Part shown: positions 2,722-20,566 of the stretch, piece after piece
Position numbering within the stretch: the stretch's first letter is position 1
Layout: the number at the start of each line of letters is the position of its first letter
Source of the DNA: a virus
DNA: 22,489 bases
IMG/VR virus record: IMGVR_UViG_3300047321_000030
Location: 1 to 22,489 of that record
Direction: 5' to 3' (one strand)
The notes under the pieces: generated by a model
Seen by the model: the letters and a program-made list of their open reading frames with translations, nothing else
Databases searched by the model: none
Told to the model about the DNA's origin: nothing
Made by a program: the position numbers and the translations under genes

Positions 2722-2996
2722 TGCCCGCACGTAAGACCGTTGACGACATGTCCGAAGTTCTCTCGCTGAACATCGACAGCCTGACCCTTGACGAAATCGA
2801 CGCTATCGAAGAGATCATCGACGCTCCGCTAGACGCGCTCTCGAAGCCGGGCATGCGGAAGGCGAAGCTACTCAAGGCTATGGCCTACGTGATCAAGCGG
2901 CGCGATAACCCGGACTTCACGATTGAGGATGCGGGCAAGCTCCGTATTCAGCTCAAGACGAAGGCGAAGGCGGACCCTACCGGGACCAACGCGTAG
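2721..2996 (+). CDS. Tail assembly chaperone, short form (gpG-like)
   Basis: A 91-residue acidic, helical protein beginning MPARKTVDDMSEVLSLNIDSL and ending in a Lys-rich stretch. The position directly before the tape measure gene, and the existence of a second open frame just after it in the -1 frame, identify it as the short tail assembly chaperone, the equivalent of lambda gpG. These proteins coat the tape measure during tail assembly and are not part of the virion. The start ATG overlaps the stop of the gp10-like gene (TAATG). The sequence itself has no motif that would prove the role; context is the main evidence. Confidence 0.75.
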   Translation: MPARKTVDDMSEVLSLNIDSLTLDEIDAIEEIIDAPLDALSKPGMRKAKLLKAMAYVIKRRDNPDFTIEDAGKLRIQLKTKAKADPTGTNA

Positions 2997-3184
2997 TTAC
3001 GTGCGCCCGCCTAGTAGGCCACTTCGAGGGGCTTACGTGGCGGGACGTCCGGTCCCTTGAACTGAGGGACTTTAACGCGTTGGTAGAGCAGATGACGAAG
3101 GACGTTGAGGCTCAGAACAACGAACACCGCCGGGCACCTTCCGGCCGGTCGAATGGGGAGCGACGAACCCCCGTAATGACGTAG
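2721..3184 (+). CDS. Tail assembly chaperone, long frameshifted form (gpGT-like)
   Basis: After the short form stops at 2994-2996, the -1 frame is open from 2927 to a TAG at 3182-3184. From 2999 it reads TCARLVGHFEGLTWRDVRSL, followed by a helix (NALVEQMTKDVEAQNNEH). The downstream frame has no good start of its own, so a -1 ribosomal frameshift in the overlap (2927-2996), as in lambda G-T, is the likely way it is made. The best slip point I see is CCCT at 2975-2978, where the proline tRNA could move from CCT back to CCC; no classical XXXYYYZ heptamer is present. The product would be about 154 residues. It ends 8 bp before the tape measure start. Confidence 0.7.
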
Positions 3185-13037: not shown

Positions 13038-13056
13038 CCTGCTCAATTGAGTAGGT
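13037..13056. promoter_or_regulatory. Operator-like palindrome, copy 6
   Basis: A 20-bp copy centred between 13046 and 13047 with one change, G for A at 13041, which keeps a G-U pair in a + strand RNA hairpin. Its first base is the last base of the preceding stop codon. It is eight bases before an early promoter-like motif, so a bound protein could block RNA polymerase there. Confidence 0.75.
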
Positions 13057-13614: not shown

Positions 13615-13651
13615 AGCCCCGTTCGGCCCCAGTGGTCGGGCGGGGCTTTTT
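13615..13651 (+). terminator. Rho-independent terminator
   Basis: The stem AGCCCCG (13615-13621) pairs with CGGGGCT (13641-13647), with a smaller inner pairing possible, followed by five T's (13647-13651). It ends the operon of the 99-aa and 52-aa genes. It is the clearest terminator in the window. Confidence 0.85.
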
Positions 13652-13777
13652 CATGCCCTCAGCGGGCCGCACAGTGACGAAGTGACGTAGTGACTATTAC
13701 TTGGGAACCACTCATAGAACAGATACAAGCCATGTAGAGCCCACCGGAAGCGTGCGCCACCGCGTCACTTCGTCACC
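13652..13777. other. Non-coding region with octamer repeats, inverted repeat and AT-rich centre
   Basis: Three tandem octamers, AGTGACGA, AGTGACGT and AGTGACTA, lie at 13673-13696. Fourteen bases, GTGACGAAGTGACG (13674-13687), recur as a perfect inverted copy at 13763-13776. The 49 bases at 13689-13737 are about 59% A+T (29 of 49), in contrast to the GC-rich surroundings. A host-type promoter is possible inside (TTGGGA at 13701, 17-bp spacer, TACAAG at 13724). No gene is visible. The layout of iterons plus an AT-rich stretch is seen in replication origins and partition or repressor sites; the role here is inference. Confidence 0.6.
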
Positions 13778-13778
13778 G

Positions 13779-13808
13779 GGCAACTGACTCCCTAGCCCCT
13801 AAGTGAGA
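13779..13808 (+). promoter_or_regulatory. Early promoter-like motif, copy 3 (exonuclease operon)
   Basis: GGCAACTGACTCCCT (13779-13793) differs from copy 1 at two bases and continues with AGCCCCTAAGTGAGA. It starts two bases after the inverted repeat of the non-coding region and 61 bp before the exonuclease start. CTCCCTAG (13788-13795) pairs with CTAGGGAG (13823-13830), the exonuclease ribosome site. Confidence 0.6.
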
Positions 13809-13839
13809 CCAACACACGGAGCCTAGGGAGGCACCACGG

Positions 13840-14679
13840 ATGGCTATACGCACTGTCCATAAGGGCGGCGGACGCTTCTACTTCGATACCGACACGCCGG
13901 AGATCAAGGTTCCCGGTGTGACGTCGGTTATCGGCATGCTCGCAAAGCCCTTTCTCCAGCACTGGGCCGCGAAGATGACCGCTGAGCTTGCCGTTGACTC
14001 ATGGGACTTCGTGGCGAAGATGGCGGAGCGGGACCGGGACGGCGCAATCTCGTACCTGTCCGGCGCGGCACGTCGCTACACGAAGACGCGTGCGGATATC
14101 GGCAGCGAAGCGCACGACCTGTTTGAGCGCATGATCCGGGGTGAGCACGTCGGGCGCGTGTCCCTGGATATGGAGCCGTACCGGCGTCACTTCGCTGAGT
14201 TCCTGGACGCCGTAAACCCGGAGCTAGTTCGCGCGGAAGACGTCGCCTGGTCTGACACTCACGGCTATGCCGGTTCGTTCGACGGCATGCTACGGATTTG
14301 GGTGGACCCGAAGACCAGGAAGCCCACCCCGGACCGTTCGGGCGTTCCCGCGCTGGTTATGGGCGACTGGAAGACCGGGAAGAACACCTATCCGGAAGTC
14401 GCGTTGCAGATGGCGGCTTACGCCTTCGCGGACCGCATCATCTCGCCGGACGGCACTTCTGACCCAATGCCGGAATTCGACGGCGGGGCCGTTCTCCACA
14501 TCACTGCCGATCAGTGGGCATTCAAGCCCGTGCGTATCGACCGGGACGTGTTTGAGGTCTTCCTTTCGCTGCGGCACATCTTCGATTGGGACCGGGAGAT
14601 TTCCAAGACGGTCCTAGGTAAGCCCCTGGCGAAGTCGTACGGAGAGCTTGTCACCGGTACTCAGCGAAGGGCGAAGTGA
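13840..14679 (+). CDS. PD-(D/E)XK exonuclease, RecB/Cas4-like
   Basis: A 279-residue protein with the motif order of the PD-(D/E)XK nuclease superfamily. GSEAHDLFERMI (residues 88-99) is motif I-like. HGYAGSFDGM supplies D148. GDWKTGK supplies D176 and K178. QMAAY (Q190, Y194) is the QxxxY motif of RecB/AddB/Cas4-type nucleases. Phage members process DNA ends for recombination or replication. The length fits stand-alone phage exonucleases. The ATG has AGGGAGG eight bases upstream. It is the first gene after the repeat-rich non-coding region, and the lipoprotein gene follows two bases after its stop. Confidence 0.8.
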   Translation: MAIRTVHKGGGRFYFDTDTPEIKVPGVTSVIGMLAKPFLQHWAAKMTAELAVDSWDFVAKMAERDRDGAISYLSGAARRYTKTRADIGSEAHDLFERMIRGEHVGRVSLDMEPYRRHFAEFLDAVNPELVRAEDVAWSDTHGYAGSFDGMLRIWVDPKTRKPTPDRSGVPALVMGDWKTGKNTYPEVALQMAAYAFADRIISPDGTSDPMPEFDGGAVLHITADQWAFKPVRIDRDVFEVFLSLRHIFDWDREISKTVLGKPLAKSYGELVTGTQRRAK

Positions 14680-18070: not shown

Positions 18071-20566
18071 ATGCAGTTCGGCGAAATTCTGGGCCGCTTC
18101 ACTGACGTGAGCGAAGAGCAGGACGGGGGATATCTCGCGCTGTGTCCGGCGCACGGTGACTCCCGTCCGTCGCTCCGGGTATGGCGCGGCGAAGACAACA
18201 AAGTCCGCATGACGTGCCGTGTCGGATGCAAGACCGAAGATGTGATCAAGGCCGTGGGGCTTTCCTGGGCGGACATGTTCAACGCCACCGGGGAAAGCCT
18301 CACGGTTCCGACTGAGCGGGCACAGCTTGTGTCCGGGGCGTACGTGGCTCAGCTTGCCGACTACGCCGAACAGGCTTCGTTCCGCCTTCTCGACTTCACG
18401 TCTTCTCTCGCCGCTCAGGCGCGGGGCTACATGACTCGGCGGTTCGGTCTGGACGAAGACACGGCTGCCGAACTAGGTATCGGCGTTGACGCTGGCGGCC
18501 CGCCTTCGTCCGTGCTGCCGTACCTGTCCCGCTCGTATCTCGCGTTCCCTCGCCTTACGGTTCCGCTCCGGGGCTTCGATGGTGCGCCGCGCGGGTTGCA
18601 GGGTCGGGACCTGTCCGGCGACTGTCCGGGCCGGTGGGTGTCCCTGATGAACCCTGAGGGCTTCCGCTGGGCTCCCTACGGGGTTTTCAGGGGGCAGGGT
18701 GGCTATGGGGTTGTCCTGGTCACTGAGGGGCCGGGAGACGCGCTCACAGCGGTTTCGTGCGGGTACGACGCGGTAGCGATCCGGGGTGCGTCCCTCGCTG
18801 TGTCGCCGGACCTGATCGCGGAACTTGCGGCGGGGCTTCGCGGGTCTCAGGTCATCATCTGTGGGGACAACGACACGGCCGGAAACGGCTTCACGAAGCG
18901 TCTCGCGGATGGGCTTGCGGCACTCGGCGTGTCCGTGGCAACCCTTGAGATCCCGTACGCGGGTGCGGACCTTACGGACTGGCGTGAGCGTGTCGGCCCG
19001 CGTGCCTTCCCGGGTCTGCTGCATGAGGCCGTTAAGGGTGCTCAGACGCTCCCTGGGGCTCACGGATTGGCCGTGCCGGACGGAGACACCGGGGCACTGA
19101 TTCCGGACGCTGACGAAGCGCGTAGGGCCGTCCGGCTGGTCTCTGAGCTTATGGAGCGCTACGGGTCCAGCGACGTTCTGAACGCACACGCTTTGGTGAC
19201 GTTCACCGGGGGCCGGATCAAGTACGCCCCGGGTCTTGGCTTCTACGTGTGGAACGGGACCATTTGGGAGCGCAGTGAGACGCGCGTCCGTCAAGCCATT
19301 CACTACATGGGTGCGGCGCTCACGGTGGCTGCCGCTGAGAAGTCCGCTGAGCACCGGGCGAAGGGCGGAGACCCGAAGGACGACCCGGGGGAGAAGCTGA
19401 GGAAGACCGCGAAGGGGTTCACGCTCACGCGGAACATTGACTCACTCATGCGTGAGCTTCGGGCAGTGCCCAGCGTGGCCGTTGAGGCGGAAGCGTTCGA
19501 CGCGCGGGAAGACCTGCTCTCGTTCCGGAACGGCACGGTGAATCTCCGCACGGGCAGGCTCCGGGAGCACTCGAAAGCGGACATGCTCACGTACGCCATG
19601 GACATTGACTATGACCCTGAGGCGACGTGTCCGCGCTGGGAAACGTTCCTCGCCGAGATTTTCCCGGACTACCCGGAACTAGTGGACTACATGCGCCGGA
19701 TGGTGGGTTACGGCATTACCGGCAGCGTGGCCGAACAGTGCTTCTGTGTTTTCTGGGGCAAGGGTGCTAACGGAAAGTCCGTGTTCACGGAGACCGTTGG
19801 GTCCGTGTTCCGGCCCCTGTCCAAGACAACGCCTTTCGCCACGTTCGAAGACAAGGCATCCGGCGGCATCCCCAACGACCTAGCGGCACTTCGAGACGCG
19901 CGGCTTGTGATGGCGTCCGAAGGCGAGTCGGGCAAGCCTATGTCCGAAGCGGTTCTCAAGCGCGTGACCGGAAAGGACGAGATAGCCGCGCGCTTTCTCC
20001 GACAGGAATTCTTCACTTTCAAGCCCCGGTTTTTGCTCATGCTGGCCACAAATCATAAGCCCAAATTCCGGGGCCAGGATGAGGGGCTTTGGCGGCGCGT
20101 GAAGATGATTCCCTTCAAGCGCTACTTTGCGCCGAGTGAGCGGGATTACACCCTTGACGCAAAGCTTTTGGCGGAATCCCAGGGCATTGCAGCGTGGGCC
20201 GTCCGTGGCGCTGTCGAGTGGTTCGCGGGTGGCTTGCAAGATCCGGCCATCATCGCTGAGGCGACGAAGGAATATCGGGAGACGTCAGACGCGCTTGCCG
20301 GATTCTTCCCGGGCGTACTTGAGCCGTGCGAGGAAGGCGAGGCAATCGACGGAGCGGCGGCTTTCAATGCCTACCTTGAGTGGTGCGAAGCCGAGAATCT
20401 GCCGCTAAAGGAACGGTGGACCCGACGTGCCTTTTATGGGGCCATGGAAGAGCGCGGAGTGACCCGGCGGAAGCGGGCACAGGGGATTGTCCTGATCGGC
20501 TGCCGCATCCCTCCCACGGGCACGAAGGCGACCGGTCCCGGGATCTTCTCCCGTGACGCTGAGTGA
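18071..20566 (+). CDS. Primase-helicase, P4 alpha-like
   Basis: An 831-residue replication protein with three regions. Residues about 20-66 hold a zinc site, C25-x2-H28 and C49-x3-C53 (CPAHGDSRPSLRV, then CRVGC), as in CHC2-type primases. Residues about 215-300 hold a TOPRIM domain: VTEGPGDAL with E219, and GDNDTAGNG with D266 and D268. The C-terminal half has the D5-type region and an SF3/P4-type helicase: Walker A GKGANGKS (563-570), then a Walker B-like MASEGE segment and LMLATNHKPKF as the sensor. It should open the origin and make primers for the polymerase encoded next. The gene has its own early promoter-like motif. Leucine CTA codons are rare here, unlike the tail genes. Confidence 0.88.
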   Translation: MQFGEILGRFTDVSEEQDGGYLALCPAHGDSRPSLRVWRGEDNKVRMTCRVGCKTEDVIKAVGLSWADMFNATGESLTVPTERAQLVSGAYVAQLADYAEQASFRLLDFTSSLAAQARGYMTRRFGLDEDTAAELGIGVDAGGPPSSVLPYLSRSYLAFPRLTVPLRGFDGAPRGLQGRDLSGDCPGRWVSLMNPEGFRWAPYGVFRGQGGYGVVLVTEGPGDALTAVSCGYDAVAIRGASLAVSPDLIAELAAGLRGSQVIICGDNDTAGNGFTKRLADGLAALGVSVATLEIPYAGADLTDWRERVGPRAFPGLLHEAVKGAQTLPGAHGLAVPDGDTGALIPDADEARRAVRLVSELMERYGSSDVLNAHALVTFTGGRIKYAPGLGFYVWNGTIWERSETRVRQAIHYMGAALTVAAAEKSAEHRAKGGDPKDDPGEKLRKTAKGFTLTRNIDSLMRELRAVPSVAVEAEAFDAREDLLSFRNGTVNLRTGRLREHSKADMLTYAMDIDYDPEATCPRWETFLAEIFPDYPELVDYMRRMVGYGITGSVAEQCFCVFWGKGANGKSVFTETVGSVFRPLSKTTPFATFEDKASGGIPNDLAALRDARLVMASEGESGKPMSEAVLKRVTGKDEIAARFLRQEFFTFKPRFLLMLATNHKPKFRGQDEGLWRRVKMIPFKRYFAPSERDYTLDAKLLAESQGIAAWAVRGAVEWFAGGLQDPAIIAEATKEYRETSDALAGFFPGVLEPCEEGEAIDGAAAFNAYLEWCEAENLPLKERWTRRAFYGAMEERGVTRRKRAQGIVLIGCRIPPTGTKATGPGIFSRDAE

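Follow-up and report, generated by a model that had tools for sequence, protein, structure and literature searches.

The stretch analyzed here, positions 1 to 22,489 of the IMG/VR virus record IMGVR_UViG_3300047321_000030 (22,489 bp; hereafter the window), covers about half of the genome of a phiC31-like siphovirus. Its genes include those for the repressor c (PF25746), a gp1-type exonuclease, a gp3-like recombination directionality factor, an HNH protein, and a primase-helicase with Toprim, D5_N and SF3 domains. Rfam and tRNA searches of the window gave no match. Before the exonuclease gene lies a 103-bp element in which two sets of short iterons face each other across a core (site A; Table 1). 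This element is by far best explained as a site that acts in cis in replication and is read by gp9a, the primase-helicase of the phage.

Table 1. Positions of site A, its parts, and the associated features in the window
Feature	Position	Strand	Remarks
Rho-independent terminator	13615-13647	+	z -3.7; separates the element from the repressor-side transcript
Inverted-iteron element (site A)	13674-13776	none	103 bp; proposed origin or cis replication site
Left iteron set	13674-13694	+	Three GTGAC units, 8-bp period (AGTGACGA AGTGACGT AGTGACTA), at 13674-13678, 13682-13686 and 13690-13694; sequence reading
Core between the iteron sets	13695-13755	none	61 bp; AT-rich on the left side; presumed melting region
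Right iteron set, inverted	13756-13776	-	GTGAC 13772-13776, GTGAC 13764-13768, GTGGC 13756-13760
gp1-type exonuclease gene	13840-14679		Nearest gene to the element
gp9a-type primase-helicase gene	18071-20566	+	Toprim primase, D5_N, SF3 (P4 family); proposed iteron reader
C-terminal domain of the primase-helicase	20231-20563	+	Predicted winged helix; proposed origin-binding domain

An earlier note on this DNA had described three tandem octamers at the left end of the element. The three GTGAC units and their 8-bp period hold, but the third octamer is AGTGACTA, so that the repeat is AGTGACNN and not AGTGACGN. The perfect 14-bp inverted repeat of GTGACGAAGTGACG is present (13674-13687 and 13763-13776) and, with mismatches allowed, becomes a repeat of 24 nt with 83% complementarity and arms 65 nt apart. 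A third unit, GTGGC, had been overlooked in the right arm and is found in phiC31 as well; with it, the element is a symmetric 3+3 array. As for the AT-rich stretch of 49 nt, the 49-mer starting at 13688 contains 30 A+T (61%) and is the most AT-rich of the window, its content being matched by only 2 of ∼22,441 windows of this length (top 0.009%). Of 300 simulated Markov-1 windows with the same dinucleotide make-up, 4 contained some perfect inverted repeat of 14 bp within 150 bp, and none contained the paired pattern GTGACN3GTGAC...GTCACN3GTCAC. The earlier observation is confirmed, and the element is somewhat larger than first described.

Comparison with related phages, which the earlier note had called for, finds the region conserved in phiC31-type relatives. 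An equivalent of site A stands before gp1 in phiC31 (L434, 21668-21766), Shawty and Lilbooboo, despite divergent DNA, and also, as read by eye, in phiBT1. The element precedes the exonuclease in the Arthrobacter phage Liebe, and Rowa and Sebastisaurus present the same layout at the same place with GTGTAG and GTGCAG units, respectively. When this change of iteron was compared with changes in the winged helix of the helicase, differences in the wing region were visible by eye and were not conclusive. Blastn with the element alone in phage records returned matches mainly to the terminator side.

phiC31 carries a second copy of the element (site B, 40447-40545) between int and tRNA-Thr. Two copies, the second near the right genome end, were found in 11 of 11 near-complete relatives (10 IMG/VR genomes and phiC31). 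Both copies were seen directly in eight of the IMG/VR genomes and in phiC31, while for G005 and G040 the other copy fell outside or across the fetched stretches and was taken from loci L038 and L171. The window record, being about half a genome, has one copy only. On the circularized genome the two copies sit roughly opposite each other, a placement that is not independent evidence since these phages share one genome plan. Core identity is 0.81 between copies within a genome and 0.57 between genomes, with the sister copy being the best core match in only 21 of 34 cases, and these core comparisons are suggestive of concerted evolution of the two copies.

We then asked how widely the design occurs by searching IMG/VR for the paired pattern given above with 52 to 82 bases between the pairs. 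It was present in at least 119 stretches, against 7 for the reversed control, several of which are themselves similar elements with another iteron. The D5_N domain (SF3 primase-helicase) was found in 35 of 50 contigs with the pattern and in 6 of 37 contigs with a single arm only; five of these six carry the inverted pair at one mismatch. DnaB_C was found in none of the 17 pattern contigs tested for it. Many unrelated contigs have the start of the element no more than ∼100 bp 3' of the stop codon of the D5 helicase, and several pattern contigs without D5_N have a VapE, Prim-Pol, BT4734-like primase or DUF5906 gene beside the element. Loci with a GTGAC-type element beside such genes, and in which D5 was not found, are L135, L136, L153, L165, L166, L169 and L187.

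The reverse test started from 80 loci fetched by helicase homology alone, so the element had no part in their selection, although the sample leans toward relatives of pattern-bearing contigs because the query alignment was built from their helicases. Any inverted tandem iteron pair was present in 35 of the 80 loci and in 2 of 80 shuffled loci. An inverted-iteron score was then applied, with 18 of 21 as the lowest value counted. Such a score was reached no more than ∼250 bp from the helicase stop in 41 of 80 loci, compared to 12 of 688 stops of other long open reading frames (ORFs) and 0.95% of 1,792 background windows. These two controls replaced a DnaB query, a single protein that gave only 16 close relatives. 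Near-duplicates among the 80 loci were handled by clustering and taking the median score per cluster, which reached 18 in 24 of 45 clusters at 70% identity and in 14 of 29 at 50% identity. The iterons vary by lineage (GTGACGG, CTGACAG, GTGAACG, GTGCCAG, GTGGCGC, and others), with a period of mostly 8 to 10 bp.

In Mycobacterium phage CrimD (L482, ∼2890-3135), the gap 3' of the D5 primase gene contains numerous GGCACAGAT iterons of either orientation, and this array is likely the same kind of origin. Near the end of contig L070 (30-123, minus strand), six tandem copies of GTGACGAAGTGACG recur with a 16-nt period, and no pair was found there. Matches to the pattern in a genome collection include many unrelated tandem GTGAC repeats in metagenome-assembled genomes and were not used as evidence; some of these genomes, among L220 to L337 (for example, Steroidobacter JAICPY01 and Planctomycetota JAHWKJ01), have facing GTGAC tandem repeats on several contigs.

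The proposed reader of the iterons matches PF08706 (D5_N; E value of 6.7e-31) and Toprim_2 (8.7e-10), and its TIGR01613 score of 243.7 bits, over a cutoff of 108.7, places it in the P4 family. Pox_D5 (PF03288), the family to which the C terminus of P4 alpha also belongs, is matched by 31 of 38 aligned homologue C termini and weakly by phiC31 gp9a (E value of 0.023), while the window's own domain alone gives no match. For this domain, the comparison with P4 by hhalign gave an E value of 0.001 but a probability of 21%.

Taken together, the 103-bp element very probably serves replication in cis and is most likely an origin, with the gp9a-type primase-helicase of the phage as its reader; a site required in cis in the manner of P4 crr would be the other form of the same reading. 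The P4-type iteron origin that was the first choice of the earlier note is thus favored by a conserved site that tracks SF3/D5 primase-helicases across unrelated viruses and shares the architecture of P4 crr and of the satellite origins discussed below. What the analysis shows is the anatomy of the element, its conservation, its presence twice per genome in relatives, its link to the helicase family, and the occurrence of the same design at sites proven by experiment in other systems; that gp9a binds the element, that the core melts and that replication starts there are inferences. In the proposed scheme, the C-terminal domain of the gp9a homologue, a predicted winged helix, would bind the GTGAC iterons, and the three iterons of each set, facing those of the other, would position a pair of SF3 helicase rings head to head. 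The intervening AT-rich core would then melt, and the rings would unwind outward, with the N-terminal Toprim primase priming both forks. Because relatives carry a second copy, site A probably acts as one of a pair, like P4 ori1 and crr.

Several observations weigh against this assignment. About half of the helicase loci fetched by homology have no element detectable by the score used, and in the phiC31-like family the helicase gene does not adjoin the element, the two being 4.3 kb apart. Upstream of the exonuclease, no element was found in phiSASD1 or in Armstrong, a Microbacterium phage with a D5 gene. GC skew in phiC31 is unchanged at both copies, and the annotated late lytic promoter of phiC31 lies ∼28 bp to the right of site B. 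The model of the C-terminal domain has the winged-helix order H-E-H-H-E-E at low confidence (predicted local distance difference test [pLDDT] of 65), and its Foldseek matches are weak (best E value of 0.06), the best neighbors being the C terminus of African swine fever virus PrimPol and RFX5.

Among the other explanations, a region required in the manner of P4 crr is rather unlikely; gp9a would bind it, but synthesis would begin at the other copy or would depend on a bridge between the two. Two copies in all 11 of the relatives and the sharing of the same iterons by P4 ori1 and crr speak for it, whereas the AT-rich core suits melting and the copies are much alike, which P4 ori1 and crr are not. 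This likeness means that neither copy is singled out as the initiator, and the sequence would fit a start of synthesis at site A, a start at the other copy, or a need for both. It is improbable that the element serves transcriptional control, with a phage protein on the inverted iterons regulating a gp1 promoter and the late promoter beside site B. That promoter and the position of site A before the early gene gp1 would suit such a role, but in many unrelated phages the element closely follows the helicase gene on its 3' side and goes with that gene family, and a sigma-70 scan found no promoter at the element, leaving the early promoter-like motif of the earlier note unsupported. That the inverted repeat forms an RNA hairpin or a terminator is very improbable: the transcript would fold well (z -2.9) and many copies in other phages sit 3' of a gene, but a hairpin needs no direct 8- to 10-bp periodicity within its arms, 65 nt separate the arms, the element is already preceded by a true terminator, and such elements are rare at the stops of other long ORFs.

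We attach equally little probability to a role in partition, as a centromere-like site, or in incompatibility. Plasmids can use iterons for partition, but nothing found here supports this role; a partition gene was not recognized among the window proteins scanned, and the association found is with replicative helicases. Least probable of all is that the element is bound by the phage repressor (phiC31 CIR type) as an operator or serves as an attachment site. The repressor gene does lie upstream of the element, but the repressor reading is rejected because the operators of this phage are a different palindrome, CCTACTCAATTGAGTAGG, at eight other places; the 18-bp CIR palindrome CCTACTCANNTGAGTAGG is not in the element and is nearest at 13038. 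An attachment site is unlikely given that phiC31 carries the element twice with neither copy annotated as attP. In line with the earlier note, no integrase adjoins the element, none being recognized among the proteins scanned in this half-genome window. The eight phiC31-type operators (CCTACTCAATTGAGTAGG or near) are at 383, 2262, 5388, 8333, 11635, 13038, 16562 and 20653 and have a central AT where phiC31 has CG, which suggests that immunity specificity may differ from that of phiC31.

The immediate surroundings agree with the earlier description in that a strong terminator precedes the element and the exonuclease gene adjoins it (Table 1). On the 3' side, a stem-loop at 13785-13833 (CTCCCTAG...CTAGGGAG) spans the ribosome-binding region of the exonuclease gene, and an equivalent pairing, CCTTCAGC...GCTGAAGG, was seen by eye in phiC31 and Lilbooboo.

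phiC31, a model Streptomyces phage, has supplied an integrase that is in wide use. No published phiC31 origin was found in the open-access literature searched, and the favored reading provides two precise candidate origin sites for phiC31 and its relatives. Since the iterons vary while the layout stays, helicase-iteron pairs could serve the study of specificity, of incompatibility between coinfecting phages and of satellite parasitism. A broader proposal, which we advance only tentatively, combines two parts: that phiC31-family phages have two near-identical, roughly opposite SF3-helicase origins that change in concert, and that D5/P4 helicases have a general origin code, consisting of inverted iterons on either side of a melting core, from which origin and iteron could be predicted from sequence in hundreds of phages.

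The design can be compared to several known systems, among which P4 crr, the SaPI/PICI origins and the pRN1 origin have been established experimentally. In P4 (crr/ori1; X51522), inverted sets of short iterons (GGTGAACA, the first two 9 bp apart) also surround a core, there are two sites per genome, the iteron order at crr is ++ / -- according to the record annotation, and alpha, a member of the P4 family, has Toprim-D5-SF3 architecture and ends in a Pox_D5 domain. However, the iteron here is GTGAC(G), and P4 crr is a pair of 120-bp direct repeats whereas the two sites of the relatives are near copies of each other. P4 crr also lies directly 3' of alpha, with ori1 as the second site bound by alpha, while site A is ∼4.3 kb from the start of the helicase gene. 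In simian virus 40 (SV40) and papillomaviruses, two SF3 helicase hexamers are loaded at short inverted sites that adjoin AT-rich DNA. Their origin-binding domain is N-terminal and of another fold, and no relation is claimed.

The origin of the archaeal plasmid pRN1 measures ∼100 bp, with 21-nt arms and a 58-nt middle, and lies 54 bp 3' of a replication gene encoding SF3 and winged-helix domains; it is necessary for replication and is sufficient together with the replication operon (PMC4234260). It resembles site A in its size, in its inverted arms and in its SF3 replication protein with a winged helix (predicted in the case of gp9a) but is described as a stem-loop without recognized iterons and is served by another primase type. 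The origins of Staphylococcus aureus pathogenicity islands and phage-inducible chromosomal islands (SaPI/PICI) have two iteron sets flanking an AT-rich region, as the present element does, and are read by the C-terminal domain of the initiator helicase, which reportedly acts as two hexamers (PMC6092414; PMC7581432). Those origins lie immediately 3' of rep and belong to satellites, whereas here the element lies upstream of the helicase gene (Table 1) in a full-size siphovirus, and the site is duplicated in relatives. The organization of the PICI origin was described as present in no other known bacterial replicon (PMC6092414); the present survey finds it widely in phages.
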